From Candidatus Methanoperedens sp. BLZ2 (GTDB lineage Archaea; Halobacteriota; Methanosarcinia; Methanosarcinales; Methanoperedenaceae), in assembly GCF_002487355.1 (NCBI RefSeq), contig NZ_NTMG01000068.1, positions 1 through 64,000 on the forward strand: 64,000 nucleotides of DNA. Reading direction: 5' to 3'. A program made the translations under genes and the position numbers. Every line of letters starts with the position of its first letter. Within the stretch, counting starts at the first letter, position 1. The notes under the pieces were generated by a model. It saw only the letters and a list, made by a program, of their open reading frames with translations. It was not told where the DNA came from and did not search any database. Positions 9,073 through 17,838 of this stretch are shown here, piece after piece.

Positions 9073-10368
9073 ATGAACTTCATCCATGCAAGCGATTTCC
9101 ACCTGGGGTATGCGCAATATGGCCTTGAAGAACGCTTCCGTGACTATGCTCGTGCTTTCCAATCTGTCATAAAATATGCCATCGATCACAGGGTTGAATT
9201 CATTCTCATATCAGGCGACCTTTTTCACAAGAGAAATATAAATGCGCCTACCTATTTACAGGCATATAAAGTTCTCCGTGAACTCAAAGAAAGAAGTCCA
9301 TCCACGCAGGTTTATGCCATCGAAGGAAATCATGACCTTGCTTATCACGCGGATAAGAATAGCTGGCTTGAGATACTGAATTCGCAGGATTTGCTAAGAC
9401 TCATCAGGCTAAAAGAAAGTAACGGTGTAAAGCTGATGGGGGATTGTATCGAACTTGAAAATGTCCGGATCTTTGGAGTAAGATACCTTGGCTCCAATAC
9501 CAGCTCAATAATTCCCCGGATAGCAGATGAGATAAGAAAAATTACATCCGCCAGCGGGAAAAAATTTACTGTTCTGATGATGCATTTTGGGATGGAAGGA
9601 CAGGTAAAGCAGGCAGAAGCCGGTGAAATTCCTTACAGTTCGCTTATACCGTTAAAAGAAGTTGTGGATTACCTTGCACTCGGGCATTACCATATGCAGT
9701 ATGAGGTAGATAGCTGGATATTCAATCCCGGCAGCATTGAAATGATATCCATGAACGAGTACGGGCTGCCCAAGGGTTTCTATCACGTAAAAGACAGCGG
9801 CGCAAAACTCATAACACCGATGACCCGGCCAGTCAGGAGAATTAAGCTGGATATCGGGGGTATTGCCAACCCGGATGCGCTTTATTCAAATATTGGAGAT
9901 ATTCTAAAGAAACAGCCTGCAAACCTTTCTGATAATAAACCTCTTGTTGAACTTTTATTGTATGGCGAGTTGAACTTTCCGAAATCAGATATCGATATAG
10001 ACCATATAAAGAAGATGCTGGAAAAAGAATTCAAGCCCCTCGCCTGCGAGGTTAAAATAGAGAAGAGCAATTCACAATATACCATCAATGAGGGTGATGT
10101 AAGGGGGCTTTCACGTGAGCAGATCGAACAACGTGTTTTTTCTGAACGAGTAAAACTTGACGCCAGATTCAAGGATAACGTCGATGCAATAGTAAATACC
10201 ATGATCGATGTCAAAAAGAAGGCTGCTGCGGGAATTGAAGAAAGTGAAATAAGGACTGATCTTAGATGGTGCTTTGAAAAAATACGTCCGGATACATCTG
10301 AAACTGTCAAGAATAACGGCAAACGCCAGGCACAGCAGCAAACCCTGCTTTCCCGCATGGGGGAATAA
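9073..10368 (+). CDS. mre11: DNA double-strand break repair nuclease Mre11
   Basis: Mn-dependent exo/endonuclease that works with Rad50 at DNA ends. Five phosphodiesterase motifs are visible: D8-x-H10, GD (48-49), GNHD (85-88), H171 and GHYH (204-207). A capping domain follows (about 230-350), then a helical Rad50-binding tail rich in Lys and Arg. At 431 aa it has the usual archaeal length. Its TAA stop shares one base with the rad50 ATG, indicating tight translational coupling. It is the first gene of the repair cluster. Confidence 0.93.
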   Translation: MNFIHASDFHLGYAQYGLEERFRDYARAFQSVIKYAIDHRVEFILISGDLFHKRNINAPTYLQAYKVLRELKERSPSTQVYAIEGNHDLAYHADKNSWLEILNSQDLLRLIRLKESNGVKLMGDCIELENVRIFGVRYLGSNTSSIIPRIADEIRKITSASGKKFTVLMMHFGMEGQVKQAEAGEIPYSSLIPLKEVVDYLALGHYHMQYEVDSWIFNPGSIEMISMNEYGLPKGFYHVKDSGAKLITPMTRPVRRIKLDIGGIANPDALYSNIGDILKKQPANLSDNKPLVELLLYGELNFPKSDIDIDHIKKMLEKEFKPLACEVKIEKSNSQYTINEGDVRGLSREQIEQRVFSERVKLDARFKDNVDAIVNTMIDVKKKAAAGIEESEIRTDLRWCFEKIRPDTSETVKNNGKRQAQQQTLLSRMGE

Positions 10369-13300
10369 TGCTCATAAAATCCCTGGAACTTAAAAAGATA
10401 AAATCTTATTCAGAAGAAACAATAGATTTTTTTGAAGGCATAAACGGCATCTGCGGGGAGAATGGGCACGGGAAAACAACAATACTTGAGGCAATAGGCT
10501 ATGCGCTCTTTGATTTCCTGCCGTTTAATCATGGGGATTTCCTGCGCCATGGTGAAAAATCAGGCTTTGTTGCCGTGACAGTGGAGGGAAAAGACGAGAT
10601 AGAATATACGATACACAGGAAAATCGGAAGTGGAAGCGATTATTTTATCAGGACGCCCGTTGGGGAGATAAAAGGAAAAAAAGATGTCCAGGCATGGCTT
10701 GCAGGCAATATGTTCCGGAGTATCAGGTCAGAAGAAGAACTGCCAGCGCTTTTTGAGAACGCCATAGGGGTACCGCAGGCCACTTTTACCACTGCATTTC
10801 TTGAGGCTGCAAGAAATCGAAAGAATATATTTGATAATATTTTGAAAGTTGAAGAATACAAGACAGCATTTGATAATCTGCTTCCTGTAATGAATGCGAT
10901 AAAGAAGACGATCGAGGAAATGGAAAGAGATCTCATCCCGCTTGCAACTCGCACTGAGAAGTATCCTGAATTGAAAAGTGAAAAAGTGGCATTACAAACT
11001 GAAATAGAAGGATTGAAAAAAGAGATCAACGAGTTAAATCAGAGAATTTCTGCACTTACCCTGAAAAAAAAGGATCTTACAGAAAAGAAGGCACATCTTG
11101 ATGCCCTTAATACTCAGATTGCAAATGAACGGATACATCTTGCAGGTCTTTCAAAGCAGCTTGAAAAGGCGCGCTCTGACCTTGCGCGGGCTAAATCCGC
11201 AAGGGATATCAAAAATGAACTTGAGCCTGCTGAAAAAGAGTTCCATAAAGAGACGGGGAAGCTAAAAGAACTCAATACATCACGCACAGAACGAGATAGA
11301 CTCAAAGAAAAGTGTGCAAAGATAGATCTTGAAATTGGCCGCCTTATTGAAAAATTTGAGCGCAGAAGAACGCTTTTTATTGAAAATGAGGGACTTGAAG
11401 AAAACAAGAAACTTCTTATTCCAAAGATAGAAACAGCGCGAAAACTTGAAGAATCCATACAACTCCTTCAAAAAGAACTAAAAGACCCGATGACCGAACT
11501 CATTTCGCGCCTCTCAAACCTTAGGGAAAAAGCGCAGCTTGTTGAGAATATGAAACAGGAGATATTGCAGCAAAACCAGAAGATGTCGACGCTTTTACCA
11601 ATGAAAGGCAGGCAGGTCAAGTTTGAGAACAGGATTAAAGAATTGAAAGATATCGAAATATCATTGAAGAATCTGTCCCTGGAAATATCTTCTTTGAAAG
11701 AAAAGGAAGCTCTTGCCAGAAAATTGCGCGATGAGATCGCACGTCTCGAATCACGAAAAAATGAACTTTTCCCGGTCATTGAAAGGCAAAAAGCCATTTC
11801 TGACGAAATAAAAAAATTGTCAACCCTGCTTGAATCATTCACTGCTATTAATTTTCAATTAAGGACGGCTCATGAAAAAAAAGAGCGTGCAAAAACCATC
11901 CAGGCAGAGTTAATAAATCTTGAAACTGAGATCGCGTCTCTTATTCCGCTTACTGAAAAACAGACTGCTCTTGAACAGGCGCAGCAGGAGCTTAACAGCA
12001 GGAGTGCAGTTTTAAAATCATTGATTACGCAGACAAAGAAAAATATGAAACTTGCAGGAACGCATGGCATCTGTCCAATATTGAATGGCGTCAAATGTCC
12101 CTCAGTAAGTGATTTTAATACCTATTTCAATGATGAGATAAATCAGAAGAACTGGGAATTAGGTGAGTTAGAAACAAGTTTGAAAAACAATATAAAGGAA
12201 CTTTCCCAACTCGATGATCCACAAAAAAAGACACAGGAAAAACGTGTGCTGGCCGAATCAAGAAAGAAGGACCTTGAATTGTATAAAGGAATAGAAGAGG
12301 AAATTGATGCAATCCGGGAAAAACTGGATTCTTTATCTTCATCATATACCAGGACATTAACAGGAAGCGACGAAGAACTCAAAGAGATATCACAAAACCT
12401 GCAATCTAAGAAAAAGGAATTTGATGACTTTACAAAATCCATCACTGAATTTCAAAATATTACAGCATTGGCAGATTCAAAAAATAAAGACCTTGAAGAA
12501 TTACCCGATATTCCTGCCGCGTTTATTGGAATACAGGAAAAATTATCCGAGATTAACGAAAAATTCAACCTTAATGTGGAGATCAATTCTATCAATAACC
12601 ATATCAAGAATATTGTTTCAGAGATCACATCCAGCGAAAAAGACCTGAAAGATCTCAATAGTCCCTCACAGCAAATTGCCATAATTGAAAACCTCATTGC
12701 TTCAAAGAGGTCAGATATTGATTCACGCAAAGATGTACCGAAATTGATAGATAGTTGTTTGAAACAGCTTGATGAACTCAATCAAAGGTTCCATTTGAAA
12801 GATTCATTAGAAGGCGAAAAGGGAGAAATCGAACTTGTTAACAATTTGATGGAAGAAAAGAAGCAGGATCTGAAATCTTTAGCATCTCCGGATAAGCAAT
12901 TTGAGGCATTGAATGAAAATATCAAGAAAAACCTTAAGGAACTGAAAACACTTGAAAAAGTACCGGAACTTATGGATTCGAGCAATAAAGAACGAGATGC
13001 ATTGATACAAGATCTTTCAAAATTCGAAGGGCTTGATGCAACCATCTTATTGCTTGAGGAAAAAATAAATAAACTTGAACCCCTGCATAGTAAATATTTG
13101 CAAGCCCTCCCGCTTGCGTCCAAATTTGATGAATGTATATCGGAAGTGGTGGAATTTGAAAATACCATCGCTTCAGCTGGTGCTTCTTTAAACATATCGG
13201 TCAGTAACCATGAGGTACTTTCAAAAGAATTCAAAGAATCTGAACTTAATGAAACTATCCAGCAGCTTGATGAACTTGGAAAAACCGCAAGCAGTATAAC

Positions 13301-13886
13301 CGAAGCCGTAAAACAGAAGAACAGGAACCTTCAAAAAATGGCAAAGGAACTTTCGGAGATGGAATCCATTCTCATCAAAATAAAGGAAAACCAGAGAAAT
13401 CTTGAAAAAGAAAGGGATTTCCTGTCATTCTCAAATTTCATCCGCGACACTATTAAATCTTCTTCGGAATTCGTCATAAATGAATTTATCGGGGAGATCA
13501 GCAGCGAGGCAAACAATATCTATTGTGAAATAATGGGTAACCACAGCGCATCTCTTCGATGGACAAATGATTATGATATTGAGATCGGGTCCGGCGGGGA
13601 AATAAGTTCTTTCAGGCAGTTAAGCGGCGGGGAACGCATGAGTGCCGCGCTTTCTGTACGGCTTGCGCTTTTAAAGAATATCTCTAACTGTGACTTTGTA
13701 TTCCTTGATGAGCCCACACAGAATATGGATGAAATAAGGCGGGAGAACCTGTCAGAACAGATAACCAGGATCAAAGGTTTCAAGCAGGTTTTCGTCATAT
13801 CCCATGATGACACTTTCAACGAAAAATACGCGCACGTAGTAAAAGTTCAGAAGATCAATGGTGAAAGCAGGGTTGAATCATGTTAG
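10368..13886 (+). CDS. rad50: DNA repair ATPase Rad50 with an atypical zinc hook
   Basis: 1172 aa, an SMC-like ATPase that tethers DNA ends and controls Mre11. Walker A is GENGHGKTT (about 30-38), the signature is LSGGE (about 1085), Walker B is VFLDEP (about 1112), and there is a final VISHDD switch. Two long coiled-coil arms lie between. The hook at the coil apex has cysteines at about 569 and 577 (CPILNGVKCP), that is C-x7-C instead of the classic C-x2-C. It is longer than many archaeal Rad50s (about 880-1000). The end overlaps nurA by 7 bp. Confidence 0.93.
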   Translation: MLIKSLELKKIKSYSEETIDFFEGINGICGENGHGKTTILEAIGYALFDFLPFNHGDFLRHGEKSGFVAVTVEGKDEIEYTIHRKIGSGSDYFIRTPVGEIKGKKDVQAWLAGNMFRSIRSEEELPALFENAIGVPQATFTTAFLEAARNRKNIFDNILKVEEYKTAFDNLLPVMNAIKKTIEEMERDLIPLATRTEKYPELKSEKVALQTEIEGLKKEINELNQRISALTLKKKDLTEKKAHLDALNTQIANERIHLAGLSKQLEKARSDLARAKSARDIKNELEPAEKEFHKETGKLKELNTSRTERDRLKEKCAKIDLEIGRLIEKFERRRTLFIENEGLEENKKLLIPKIETARKLEESIQLLQKELKDPMTELISRLSNLREKAQLVENMKQEILQQNQKMSTLLPMKGRQVKFENRIKELKDIEISLKNLSLEISSLKEKEALARKLRDEIARLESRKNELFPVIERQKAISDEIKKLSTLLESFTAINFQLRTAHEKKERAKTIQAELINLETEIASLIPLTEKQTALEQAQQELNSRSAVLKSLITQTKKNMKLAGTHGICPILNGVKCPSVSDFNTYFNDEINQKNWELGELETSLKNNIKELSQLDDPQKKTQEKRVLAESRKKDLELYKGIEEEIDAIREKLDSLSSSYTRTLTGSDEELKEISQNLQSKKKEFDDFTKSITEFQNITALADSKNKDLEELPDIPAAFIGIQEKLSEINEKFNLNVEINSINNHIKNIVSEITSSEKDLKDLNSPSQQIAIIENLIASKRSDIDSRKDVPKLIDSCLKQLDELNQRFHLKDSLEGEKGEIELVNNLMEEKKQDLKSLASPDKQFEALNENIKKNLKELKTLEKVPELMDSSNKERDALIQDLSKFEGLDATILLLEEKINKLEPLHSKYLQALPLASKFDECISEVVEFENTIASAGASLNISVSNHEVLSKEFKESELNETIQQLDELGKTASSITEAVKQKNRNLQKMAKELSEMESILIKIKENQRNLEKERDFLSFSNFIRDTIKSSSEFVINEFIGEISSEANNIYCEIMGNHSASLRWTNDYDIEIGSGGEISSFRQLSGGERMSAALSVRLALLKNISNCDFVFLDEPTQNMDEIRRENLSEQITRIKGFKQVFVISHDDTFNEKYAHVVKVQKINGESRVESC

Positions 13887-15022
13887 ACTTAAAAAATATC
13901 TGCCTTCAATTCGATGAGAAGCTTTCCGCAATAAAATCCTATGACTTCGAACTCTCCGAATTGACCAGAGAGTACAGAACTGAACTTGACAAACTGAAAA
14001 TAATAAACATGGAGCTTAATAAGAACCTTCCACCCTATAGCGGCGCGAAGCTTCTTGAGCCGGGAAAACTCATCCGTCCGTTCCCATTTAACTGGAAAAA
14101 CCGCAGGGATGCGATGGAATGGATGGATTCTGTCCTTTCAGGGGTTCCTGTGGGTGCTGTGGATGGTAGCCAGATATATTCGGATAAGAATCATGAGATA
14201 CCTCTTGCGGTGATCCAGATATCACGTATTTTTAACAGGCACACAGAAAATATGGATTATAAGCAGGAGACAGATGCAATTATAATCACGCCGGATGAGT
14301 TTGAAGAAGCAAGCGTTTATTCCTTCGGCAAAGAATATGTCGATGCACGCCGTTTTTCCATGGAATGCGATGGAATTGTCCGCCTGATGAATGAATATAA
14401 AAGCATCTTTGTCCTGCTTGATGGCGCGCTTATTCTTTCGCATATTAACGTACTGAACAAGAATACGAGGGAAATTTATATAAAAGCAATAATGAAACTG
14501 TTTGAAACTTCAGAAAAAACCAGAAGCCCCGTGATCGGTTTTATTGATACTACCATGCCACGGGACATTACGCTTATGATGCATTTCCTTTTCGGTTTGA
14601 GGAAAAGTAAACTTTCAGATACGCATCTTTTTTCAGATATGTTATGGGGCGAGCGGACAGCGGCTTTTCTTTGTGATCGCGATGACAGGCGTGGCGATGA
14701 GGCAAAATCTGTTCTTGATAATTACGGAAGATTCAGTAAGGACATCGCTTTTTTTTACATGAGGACAGGCAATGGTCTTCCCGCACGTGTGGAATTTCCT
14801 GCATGGGTTCAAAAAGAAGATATGGTTGATAAGATCGCAGACATGATAAGGGCAGAATGTATCATTCGCGGCAATTATCCCGATATAGTGATGCGGGCGC
14901 ATGATGCGGCTGTGATAAGGACGAATGAACATGAGCTTTTTTATGGGATGCTTGAGAATTTTTGTAATGTCCATGGGATAAAGATTCATAGAAGTGCAAA
15001 AGATTTTCATAAGAGGTTATGA
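13880..15022 (+). CDS. nurA: NurA 5'-3' nuclease
   Basis: 380 aa nuclease that resects DNA ends together with the HerA translocase. The conserved NurA core begins at VGAVDGSQI (D95, metal-binding Asp), has a second acidic strand at VLLDGALI (D181), and ends with the typical YPDIVMRAHDAAVI segment. A coiled-coil N-terminal extension precedes the core. The ATG overlaps the end of rad50. Unusually, a toxin-antitoxin-like pair follows instead of herA. Confidence 0.9.
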   Translation: MLDLKNICLQFDEKLSAIKSYDFELSELTREYRTELDKLKIINMELNKNLPPYSGAKLLEPGKLIRPFPFNWKNRRDAMEWMDSVLSGVPVGAVDGSQIYSDKNHEIPLAVIQISRIFNRHTENMDYKQETDAIIITPDEFEEASVYSFGKEYVDARRFSMECDGIVRLMNEYKSIFVLLDGALILSHINVLNKNTREIYIKAIMKLFETSEKTRSPVIGFIDTTMPRDITLMMHFLFGLRKSKLSDTHLFSDMLWGERTAAFLCDRDDRRGDEAKSVLDNYGRFSKDIAFFYMRTGNGLPARVEFPAWVQKEDMVDKIADMIRAECIIRGNYPDIVMRAHDAAVIRTNEHELFYGMLENFCNVHGIKIHRSAKDFHKRL

Positions 15023-15083: not shown

Positions 15084-15347
15084 ATGACTGAGAACATGAG
15101 CGTTAAAATAAGTTCAGATGCAAAAATAATACTTGATACTATGTATCAACAATTACGCAACAGTGGAATTAAAATTACAGAAAAAAAGATCCTCGATACA
15201 CTAATATCAAATGCCGATATTGCTACTATAAAAAAATTGCTGAAAAAAGAAGATAATACAGCCCTCTTAATGTTGAAAAAACCAGTGTATTGGGGGGTTG
15301 CAGATTCTTCGGAAGATATTGACCGCTATCTTTATGGGAATCCATGA
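15084..15347 (+). CDS. Antitoxin-like small protein (VapB role)
   Basis: 87 aa with an N-terminal predicted helical DNA-binding part (VKISSDAKIILDTM, then ITEKKILDTLIS) and an acidic C-terminal tail. It lies directly before a PIN-domain gene with a 4-bp ATGA overlap, the standard layout of type II modules. No named antitoxin family was recognised. The pair sits inside the repair cluster, 61 bp after nurA. Confidence 0.6.
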   Translation: MTENMSVKISSDAKIILDTMYQQLRNSGIKITEKKILDTLISNADIATIKKLLKKEDNTALLMLKKPVYWGVADSSEDIDRYLYGNP

Positions 15348-15748
15348 GCCTTCTTATTGATACTTCTGCGCTTGTTGCAGCCAGGAATGCTGATGATAGA
15401 AACCATAATAAAGCACTTGATATCATGACCAGGGCTTTAAAAGGCGAATTTGGTAAATTGTATATCAGCGATTATATTTTCGATGAGGCAGTGACCATTG
15501 CTTATATCAGGACCGGCAATAAGAATTTTTCAGAAGACCTGGGACGATTTGCGCGAACCAGACCAATCATATTCCGGTTCATTGAGCCGATCGACTTTGA
15601 GAGGGCATGGGAGCTTTATCTGCAATACAGAGACAAGAATTTCAGTTTTACAGATTGTACGAATATCGCACTTATGGAAAGGCATGAGATTGATACGCTT
15701 TTTACATATGATTTAGAATTTAATGGAATCATAAGTATTATTGGATAA
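15344..15748 (+). CDS. PIN-domain ribonuclease toxin (VapC-like)
   Basis: 134 aa, typical VapC length. PIN residues are visible: the first Asp in LLIDTSALVA, an acidic residue in IFDEAV, and the third acidic site in FSFTDCTNIALM, with a final FTYDLEFNGI strand. It is predicted to cleave RNA in a metal-dependent way and to be held inactive by the upstream gene product. It lies 9 bp before the 171-aa repair-cluster gene, so transcription probably passes through. Confidence 0.75.
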   Translation: MSLLIDTSALVAARNADDRNHNKALDIMTRALKGEFGKLYISDYIFDEAVTIAYIRTGNKNFSEDLGRFARTRPIIFRFIEPIDFERAWELYLQYRDKNFSFTDCTNIALMERHEIDTLFTYDLEFNGIISIIG

Positions 15749-15757
15749 GAGGATAAA

Positions 15758-16273
15758 ATGACATTAGGAGACATAATCAGGGTTGAAGACGCGCGCGCAT
15801 ATGTGGCAAAAATTCCGCCCGATGCTAAAAAAGAACGCATAGGAAGTTTCGTCAAAATAAAAAAAGATGACGGGTTGATTGTAGGAGTAATAAAGAACAT
15901 CACAAATTCAATACGCGAAGACCTTATTCCGTATATTAACCATGAGTTGGCGCCCAAGTATGCTCCTTTTAATGAGGATTTCAGGAACAGCTATTATGTT
16001 CTTCATGGGCTTGGAACGATCCGTAACGGGATCGTAAAATACGATATCGATTCACCACCTGATGTACGGGACAAAGTGGAAATGTTAAATCCTGAAGAAT
16101 TAAAGTTCTTCCATACTATTGACGGAAAGCAAAGCATCGCTTATTTTCACTCAAACTGCGATGCTCTTTCACAAAATGTCCTTATCGCGATGGTCGACCA
16201 GATCGAGGCTCAGTGTCCTGAATGCAGAGCCATGTTTGCGCTTGTTCGAAAATATATCAAGAGAAATTTATGA
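15758..16273 (+). CDS. Repair-cluster-associated protein of unknown function, 171 aa
   Basis: No family name could be assigned with confidence. The N-terminal part (VGSFVKIKKDDGLIVGVIKNI-like beta segment, about 28-50) resembles a small beta-barrel such as the HAS barrel found at the start of HerA. The middle repeats the theme (LGTIRNGIVKYDID). The C-terminus has a CPEC pair. Its TGA overlaps the herA ATG (ATGA), so the two are translationally coupled. A role as HerA partner is inferred from position. Confidence 0.6.
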   Translation: MTLGDIIRVEDARAYVAKIPPDAKKERIGSFVKIKKDDGLIVGVIKNITNSIREDLIPYINHELAPKYAPFNEDFRNSYYVLHGLGTIRNGIVKYDIDSPPDVRDKVEMLNPEELKFFHTIDGKQSIAYFHSNCDALSQNVLIAMVDQIEAQCPECRAMFALVRKYIKRNL

Positions 16274-17838
16274 TCGGAATTGTCAATCATTCGGGTGAAG
16301 AGGGATTTTCATTCATTTCAAGTGAGCGGCTTCCTGCAGGGATGTTCGCATTCTATCTTGAAGGAGAAAGAAAGATCCTGTGCAGGGTGAAATATGGGGA
16401 GCCGCTCAAACAGTATCCGCAGGAATTTCTTATGGATATGGAGATTTCTCCTGATGACGTTTCGGCGTTTTATGGGTTTGACATGCAGGATTTCAAATAT
16501 TATTCATATTCAACATCAGTCGTTGGATATTTTGATGCATTGATGGGTGAATTCATAAATCCCAGGACAAATCCTGCCAGCGGCGTGAAAATCGACCGCG
16601 CGGGCGAGGATGTCTTGAAAGATATAAGTAAAGTAAAAGCAGGAGATTCCGGTTCTGCATTAATCGGGAACGTGCTTGGTGAAAAGACAGAGATCGTATT
16701 ATCCGTACGTGACATCGTGAGCCAGCATATATCTGTGATCGCATCAACCGGCGCGGGGAAATCATATACTGTCGGCGTTCTGGTCGAAGAGCTGTTGAAA
16801 CCTTATAACATGGCTCCTGTTCTTATTTTTGATCCTCACGGGGAATACTCTTCCCTTGGTGAAATTTCAAACAACGCAGAATTTGTGACTCCAACTTACC
16901 GTCCGAAAGTCAGGATAGTTAAACCAAAAGATATCAAGATCAGGGTAAGTGATCTTCATGTCAGTGATTTTATCAGCATTATGGATGACGGCACCATGTC
17001 TGATAAGATGAAGACGCTGTTCCGTTCGGCATATCACAGCCTTAAGAATAATAGTAAGAAACAATTCACCCGCAATGAATTGAAACAGGAAATAGAGTTG
17101 CTCCGGGACAAGAATAACGAGTCCACGATCGAAGGCATCAATTGGAGATTCGGAAAACTGTACGCACCCATTTTCGATGATTTCCAGACAATCCCCCTTG
17201 CTGATTATTTTAAAGTGGGGCAGCTCACGATAATGGATGTTTCAGGCATAGAAGAGACATTCCAGCAATTGATCGCTTCTATAATGCTGCGCCGCCTGTT
17301 TGATGCACGCGAGGGCACAGAGAACAACAGGTACAATGAATCCCATGTTGATAAATTCCTCCCCTATCCTGTTTTTTTGGTGATCGAGGAAGCGCACAGG
17401 TTCGCTCCGCAAAGCGGCGAAGCAAAATCAAAGAGCATCTTAAAGACCATTCTCTCCGAAGGCAGGAAATTCGGGATAGGCGTATGCCTCGTATCACAGC
17501 GCCCCAGCAAGCTGGATGCAGATTCCCTTTCGCAATGCATGACCCAGATAACGATGCGAATAGTAAATCCCACAGACCAGCAGCAGATAGCCCAGAGTGT
17601 AGAATCCGCAAGCAGGGACCTGATATCAGAGCTGCCATCTCTTGCAAAAGGCCAGGCGATCATTTCAGGTGTGGCGATAAATACGCCTGCGCTGGTAAAG
17701 ATCCGAAAGAGGATCACGAGTGATACGAAAGGGAGGAGCAAGGATGCGCCATCTATCTGGGCGGCAGAAAGGAAGTATGAGGAAAAGCACAGGGCGCCGG
17801 AAGTGAAGGCAGATGAGGAGATAGATGTGGGGGTTTAA
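16270..17838 (+). CDS. herA: HerA bipolar DNA helicase/translocase
   Basis: Hexameric FtsK/HerA-type ATPase that drives NurA. A HAS-barrel N-terminus (about 1-140) is followed by Walker A ASTGAGKS (158-165), Walker B FLVIEEAH (about 370-377), a sensor segment VSQRPSKLD and the arginine-bearing C-terminal region. The ATG at 16270 is chosen because it overlaps the upstream stop and begins the conserved MIGIV strand; an earlier in-frame ATG (16222) lies inside the upstream gene. 522 aa is normal. Confidence 0.93.
   Translation: MIGIVNHSGEEGFSFISSERLPAGMFAFYLEGERKILCRVKYGEPLKQYPQEFLMDMEISPDDVSAFYGFDMQDFKYYSYSTSVVGYFDALMGEFINPRTNPASGVKIDRAGEDVLKDISKVKAGDSGSALIGNVLGEKTEIVLSVRDIVSQHISVIASTGAGKSYTVGVLVEELLKPYNMAPVLIFDPHGEYSSLGEISNNAEFVTPTYRPKVRIVKPKDIKIRVSDLHVSDFISIMDDGTMSDKMKTLFRSAYHSLKNNSKKQFTRNELKQEIELLRDKNNESTIEGINWRFGKLYAPIFDDFQTIPLADYFKVGQLTIMDVSGIEETFQQLIASIMLRRLFDAREGTENNRYNESHVDKFLPYPVFLVIEEAHRFAPQSGEAKSKSILKTILSEGRKFGIGVCLVSQRPSKLDADSLSQCMTQITMRIVNPTDQQQIAQSVESASRDLISELPSLAKGQAIISGVAINTPALVKIRKRITSDTKGRSKDAPSIWAAERKYEEKHRAPEVKADEEIDVGV

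Follow-up and report, generated by a model that had tools for sequence, protein, structure and literature searches.

An extended C-x7-C hook and segmental, apparently exchangeable arms in the Rad50 of Candidatus Methanoperedens and its relatives

The window analyzed here, a stretch of 64,000 nucleotides from Candidatus Methanoperedens sp. BLZ2, encodes a Rad50 that probably combines two clade-specific features, an extended hook through which zinc would be shared, and a segmental arm that appears to be duplicated, lost and exchanged between heads. The conserved hook, the repeats, the discrete length classes and the exchange among relatives are read from the sequences, and the sharing of zinc, the geometry of the segments and selection for matched strands are what we infer from them.

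The rad50 ORF (Table 1) encodes the Rad50 of this cell, which is the ATPase in the Mre11-Rad50 complex. The gene lies in an mre11-rad50-nurA-herA cluster, in which it is flanked by mre11 and nurA, with herA beyond. Both ends of the 1172-aa protein match solved archaeal Rad50 heads (PDB 5f3w, 4e-25), and Walker A, the LSGGE signature and Walker B are all present, forming a split ABC head like that of the solved Rad50 heads. The NCBIfam Rad50 models match far below their curated cut-offs (192 bits for PRK03918, as compared with a cut-off of 700 bits), indicating that the protein is a divergent Rad50. No second Rad50 was recognized in the window genome, where the next-best matches to Rad50 models were a 585-aa protein and an SMC-sized 1171-aa frame. 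Between nurA and herA, an 87-aa ORF (15084-15347, + strand) overlaps by 4 bases a 134-aa PIN-domain ORF (15344-15748, + strand; PF01850, 1.1e-10), and the two resemble a toxin-antitoxin pair; a third ORF in this interval (15758-16273, + strand) gave no Pfam match.

Table 1. Features of the mre11-rad50-nurA-herA cluster and of its Rad50, in window coordinates.
Feature	Position	Strand	Basis
mre11 (431 aa)	9073..10368	+	Pfam Metallophos 5e-12; top NCBIfam matches archaeal Mre11 and SbcD models, under cut-offs
rad50 (1172 aa)	10368..13886	+	AAA_23 1.4e-20; NCBIfam Rad50 PRK03918 1.2e-56; PDB Rad50 heads 4e-25
rad50 N-terminal ATPase head lobe, aa 1-200	10368..10967	+	Walker A at aa 30
N-arm repeat N1, aa 334-391, 58 aa	11367..11540	+	profile autocorrelation; units aligned by eye
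N-arm repeat N2, aa 392-449	11541..11714	+	profile autocorrelation; units aligned by eye
N-arm repeat N3, aa 450-507	11715..11888	+	profile autocorrelation; units aligned by eye
N-arm repeat N4, aa 508-565, continues into hook	11889..12062	+	profile autocorrelation; units aligned by eye
Extended hook motif CPILNGVKC, aa 569-577, C-x7-C	12072..12098	+	sequence; hairpin in AlphaFold2 model
Hook-proximal C-arm segment, aa 586-660	12123..12347	+	weakly like C repeats at offset 73
C-arm repeat C1, aa 661-735, 75 aa	12348..12572	+	profile autocorrelation peaks 75, 150
C-arm repeat C2, aa 736-810	12573..12797	+	profile autocorrelation
C-arm repeat C3, aa 811-885	12798..13022	+	profile autocorrelation
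rad50 C-terminal ATPase head lobe, aa ~1010-1172	13395..13886	+	LSGGE at aa 1085
nurA (380 aa)	13880..15022	+	Pfam NurA 1.8e-26
herA (538 aa)	16222..17838	+	Pfam DUF87 4e-40; NCBIfam HerA 2.5e-60, under cut-off

A preliminary description of this DNA had reported a hook with C-x7-C in place of the canonical C-P-x-C spacing, and we found C569 and C577 eight positions apart, as described. The remaining seven cysteines (residues 29, 316, 797, 923, 1053, 1108 and 1172) form no C-x2-C or CPxC pair, excluding a hidden hook elsewhere in the protein. The same description had named a separate C-x2-C at the true coil apex as a finding that would speak against it; in the AlphaFold2 models, the turn of the arm hairpin is the C-x7-C site itself. 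The repeated Cys-Pro on which it had remarked is present in the window protein but is not conserved, a second Cys-Pro recurring among the loci compared only in G020. The protein is also longer than most archaeal Rad50s, as had been stated (1172 aa, as compared with the proteins or frames of 884-911 aa that are common in the order and phylum), and its extra length is due to repeats on both strands of the arm, a cause that had been missed.

The family of the window Rad50 was searched for at E 1e-20 in 185 genomes of the order, and was found in 51 of them, comprising 31 of the 34 genomes of family f1, 14 of f3 and 6 of f4; the same search gave no member in f2 or f5 genomes. The three f1 genomes without a match were G017, G029 and G033, two of which are >90% complete. 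The C-x7-C spacing was found in 46 of the 47 genomes with a readable hook, the window's included (30 in f1, 11 in f3 and 5 in f4). Both cysteines, whose conservation the preliminary description had proposed to check, are thus kept throughout these families with one exception, indicating that the spacing is a clade trait rather than chance or an oddity. In a 16-row alignment, C569, P570, G574 and C577 were invariant, and the arms of the same rows were otherwise variable. The exception was G048 of f4 (L052, G048:C12), in which the first Cys is lost and the second kept (Rad50 near aa 420-430), apparently through an in-frame deletion, since ~35 aa before the first Cys are missing by eye; this is possibly an assembly error, the genome being 61% complete.

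Family f5, probably Methanosarcinaceae, has its own, different Rad50 in 108 of 111 genomes, with C-x2-C in all 38 loci read (from 36 of the 111 genomes). The idea that the extended spacing might be standard in the order therefore holds for f1, f3 and f4, but not for f5. In f5, CPxC does not always retain its Pro, as the hook of L247 (G099) reads CTTC. Elsewhere, C-x7-C was also found in the archaeal families f14 and f15 (four loci in all), and C-x6-C in all 17 loci read in f9, which we guess to be probably Archaeoglobaceae. Among 201 Chloroflexota genomes, 55 matched the window-type family, and C-x6-C was identified by motif in 28 of 31 loci and by eye in L158; the fragments L159 and L160 gave no hook, nor did L245, in which no long frame was read. 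Four loci that we guess to be haloarchaea-like carry C-x2-C. A scan of viral contigs yielded nine Rad50-like loci, the best of which (L190, on a virus-labelled IMG/VR contig) is a Rad50-like 812-aa frame with a canonical CPTC hook. Uniform spacing within clades, with other spacings in groups such as f9 and Chloroflexota, is in line with C-x7-C being a lineage-specific spacing variant with unchanged function, in a protein whose arm lengths drift neutrally. We regard this as a possible but rather doubtful explanation as a whole; its hook half is compatible with our main reading, and the arms, which bear on its other half, are considered below.

The hook was modelled with AlphaFold2 on aa 500-660 from six rows, as a single, metal-free chain, and the model showed a mean pLDDT of 89.4, with 62-79 around the hook. 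DSSP assigned helices to 501-566 and 581-614 and strand or bridge to 568-569 and 575-576, which suggests that a short hairpin, its base formed by C569 and C577, lies between two long helices, as read from DSSP rather than from coordinates. The predicted placement of both cysteines at the base does not favour the earlier proposal that each Cys sits at a different place on the hairpin. In a Foldseek search with this model, two 1l8d chains (Pyrococcus zinc hook) ranked 31st and 40th, with target-normalised TM of 0.78 and 0.77 and a probability of 1.00, but with E values of 0.43-0.51 that are not significant; the best E for any match was 0.08. With VIA-align, the Chaetomium Rad50 hook 7zqy reached a Z of 10.4 (151 residues), a score at which many unrelated helical hairpins tied with it. 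Neither the hook region nor the full-length protein had a Pfam Rad50 zinc-hook model among its matches listed at E ≤10, in searches where HMMER filters drop weak matches.

Canonical hooks carry the Cys pair on a β-hairpin at the tip, where one intermolecular Zn is bound (accessible text of PMC9569753). Since the predicted hairpin between long helices resembles the Pyrococcus zinc hook, the likeliest arrangement appears to be the canonical Zn(Cys)4 dimer with a longer loop, and the C-x7-C hook is probably a conserved clade variant still working as a zinc hook. The departure from CPxC, together with a Cys pair that is invariant in 16 rows, might also fit a hook that is not a canonical zinc site but a disulfide, a site for another metal or two separate half-sites; we consider this unlikely, as the short hairpin predicted between the cysteines resembles 1l8d.

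Repeats in the arms were detected by self-comparison of a profile built on 14 proteins in the length class of 1172-1180 aa. The best offset was 58 (z 4.1) in the outer N arm (aa 331-560), with 116 second, and 75 (z 4.5) in the C arm (aa 591-900), where 150 ranked third. When the N arm was taken in full, offset 58 was still top but weak (z 2.6), with 24 and 31 close behind. The window protein has four 58-aa units on the N strand (334-565) and three 75-aa units on the C strand (661-885). Heptad-block shuffles were non-discriminating, as at most 1 of 300 shuffles reached the score in 15 of 22 arm tests, repeat-free families included. In an AlphaFold2 model of the arm from six aligned rows, whose pTM of 0.37 makes its geometry tentative, the N arm was a single helix (aa 331-565) and the C arm was broken, with two helices in C1 and three each in C2 and C3. 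The 63-64 helical residues in each C unit of this model could pair with 58 residues of the N helix.

Arm lengths were tabulated for 40 genomes with complete rad50 and hook, leaving out G048 and genomes in which rad50 is cut by a contig end. We found four discrete length classes per strand, with the first hook Cys at position 390-394, 451-452, 508-512 or 568-570, and a hook-to-LSGG distance of 293, 368-373, 443-453 or 515-521. The N and C classes agreed in 38 of the 40 genomes (14 N3C3, 11 N1C1, 8 N0C0 and 5 N2C2), a pattern that neutral drift of arm length would not readily produce. The two unmatched genomes, both of f3, were G083 (N2C1) and G043 (N1C2). When neighbouring units were compared at the DNA level in f3, the identities on the N and C strands were 96% and 97% in G035, 95% and 92.5% in G068, 97% and 94.5% in G086, and 72% and 84.5% in G047, respectively, suggesting that the extra f3 units are young and often alike in age on both strands. 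G043 has a C duplication that is 100% identical, without a recent N duplication, and G083 has an N duplication (71%) with a single C unit. These mismatches may represent collapsed assembly or true intermediates, and are not secure either way, since near-identical repeats can collapse in short-read assembly and the recent f3 repeats are 92-100% identical over 150-200 nt windows.

A paired step was also found in the C-x2-C Rad50 of f5, which measures ~888 or ~1071 aa, the difference being ~+96 on N and ~+87 on C. In two sequences of it, internal similarity was highest at offsets 97 (z 4.4) and 87 (z 3.8); repeat identities were 37 and 30% over 60 residues, and longer f5-type forms are also present in G102 and G150. 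In the Chloroflexota loci L152 and L154, the hook lies at 517 and the hook-to-LSGG distance is 367, as compared with 418-421 in most other Chloroflexota read; the C strand alone is ~53 aa shorter, with the N strand unchanged, representing unmatched variation outside archaea.

Comparison of close relatives indicated that arms of different length have been exchanged between them. In the head tree, short genes (911-aa class) adjoin long ones on short branches, and two sister sets, G009/G005 and G031/G011+G023, have similar heads, Mre11 and NurA but unequal arm length. By blastn, identity between the long G009 and the short G005 was 88.6% over the stretch between the start of mre11 and rad50 nucleotide 1055, dropped to 66.5% at the tip, and returned to 87.4% in the stretch that begins at nucleotide 2515 and runs through nurA and beyond. 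Third-codon identity in this pair was 82-90% at aa 1-200, 70% at 201-240, mostly 35-62% along the coil and its hook, and 78-85% beginning at aa 1030, with one exception inside the block (window aa 281-320, 78%). For G031/G011, the corresponding values changed from 60-88% in the head to 30-65% in the arm and back to 70-82% in the head, and for G005/G011, both short, they were 52-70% up to residue 200 and 62-85% along the arm. The DNA identity tables agreed with the third-codon edges of the block, of which the left one lies near aa 200-240 in these relatives. These edges indicate that the exchanged block takes in the hook and the coiled coil, the latter wholly or for the most part, and that its limits lie roughly at the head lobes; neutral drift of the arms would not readily produce block exchange at the head/coil edges.

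AU tests were carried out on DNA from 17 taxa, with groups picked after the trees were seen. For both mre11 + rad50 start and rad50 end + nurA, G009 grouped with G005, and G031 with G011+G023 (100/100), and a single clade of the five short genes was rejected (p 8.6e-8 and 2.6e-64, respectively). In the tip tree, the five short genes formed one clade (100/99), and both G009+G005 (8.5e-8) and G031+G011+G023 (6e-90) were rejected. Mapping the length classes onto the trees required at least 4 changes for the first DNA tree, 2 for the tip tree and 5 for the last. A protein tree of 661 columns, with much of the coil included, did not resolve G009, G031 and G007 among the short genes. Taken together, the block-wise drop in third-codon identity and the AU rejections indicate that arm plus hook moves as one cassette. 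Head and tip were discordant by >20 points in 7 of 24 close pairs (head third-position identity of at least 66%), namely three long/short pairs in f1, the equal-length pair G006/G028 and three f3 pairs against G039; in the other 17, the difference was ≤20 points (e.g., 92/92, 92/90 and 88/90). The discordance of G006/G028 at equal arm length implies that exchange is not tied to length change.

Paralogues were rejected as the source of the two arm lengths, since G009, G005 and G031 each have one Rad50 place; G005 has one weak ABC match besides Rad50, and G010 and G011 have extra fragments. Another explanation of the head/arm discordance would be chimeric metagenome assembly, most of the genomes compared being fragmented assemblies, or faster evolution of the arms without recombination, coiled coils being poorly conserved. 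This appears highly improbable, because the edges are similar in two sister sets, the five short arms form one well-supported clade, and most close pairs differ little between head and tip.

The exchange between long and short arms is seen only in relatives of the window gene, not in the window gene itself. As compared with its nearest relatives G020 and G021, the window rad50 showed head/tip third-position identities of 88/90 and 82/85%, and the tip was more similar than the head to G018 (76 vs 62%) and G002 (75 vs 57%), both of the same length class, so that exchange within one length class may have occurred in the window lineage. Identity was higher for rad50 end + nurA than for the mre11 side in G008/G012 (81.6 vs 73.4%) and in G003/window (76.7 vs 66.1%), an asymmetry that hints at further recombination within the operon.

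In the mechanism that we propose, a single Zn would be bound by four Cys from two protomers, which is the arrangement of the canonical hook, although each pair of cysteines is five residues further apart than there. The N strand would be a continuous helix of 58-aa repeats and the C strand a series of shorter helices, of which each 75-aa repeat contributes two or three; an arm segment of ~9 nm (58 helix residues) would be made up of one N and one C repeat, a pairing suggested by matched numbers and predicted helix content. Arm length would shift by whole segments through tandem duplication or loss on both strands. The arms of SMC and Rad50 are antiparallel hairpins, in which the two strands must fit each other, and they would as a rule remain matched, presumably since an antiparallel coil would be strained by a mismatch. 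Homologous exchange between the two head lobes would swap the whole coiled coil and hook, leaving heads, Mre11 and NurA in place, and, because both strands and the hook are replaced in one event, unmatched intermediates would be avoided. We give about even chances to the broader idea that the arms are exchangeable length cassettes, built from paired ~9 nm N/C segments that set fixed steps of reach and swapped between species by way of the conserved heads, perhaps since selection keeps arm and hook types diverse. As to possible drivers, our guesses would be diversifying selection by inhibitors, for example those of mobile elements, or the avoidance of mixed dimers.

We know of no settled account of how arm length evolves in SMC and Rad50, and a modular, exchangeable arm is the part of this reading likely to surprise specialists. 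The Methanoperedens sister species, with near-identical heads and partners and arms two repeats per strand apart, would constitute, together with the recent paired duplications in the sister family, a natural experiment on the function of Rad50 arm length, which bears also on whether both strands must change together. The extended hooks C-x6-C and C-x7-C widen what motif-based annotation counts as a zinc hook. The literature searched, mostly outside subscription journals and supplements and including the accessible parts of PMC5344682, PMC9569753 and PMC3950489, contained no description of C-x7-C hooks, Rad50 arm repeats or arm exchange.

The window hook, as modelled, is like the canonical Rad50 zinc hook of Pyrococcus furiosus (1L8D, CXXC) in that a Cys pair sits at the tip of an antiparallel coiled coil, and differs in having seven, not two, residues between the cysteines; no solved structure with such an extended hook was found among the PDB head matches and Foldseek matches listed. 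The tropomyosin coiled coil consists of two separate chains, whereas the Rad50 repeats sit on two strands of one hairpin. According to the accessible text of PMC5344682, tropomyosin has long-range coiled-coil repeat units and tolerates deletion of an entire repeat. The same text describes SMC arm lengths as discrete and functionally tuned, with bacterial Smc functioning only at certain arm lengths, and its authors consider that the Rad50 length distribution probably reflects the same. As compared with those SMC classes, lengths are discrete in both; in the Rad50 described here, the quantum appears as a visible sequence repeat, mostly strand-matched, and arms of different class have been exchanged between close relatives. 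The Rad50 hook is interchangeable with the SMC hinge, as reported in the accessible part of PMC6969161; both that swap and our reading treat the tip as a swappable module, and here the whole arm and hook have been swapped in nature.
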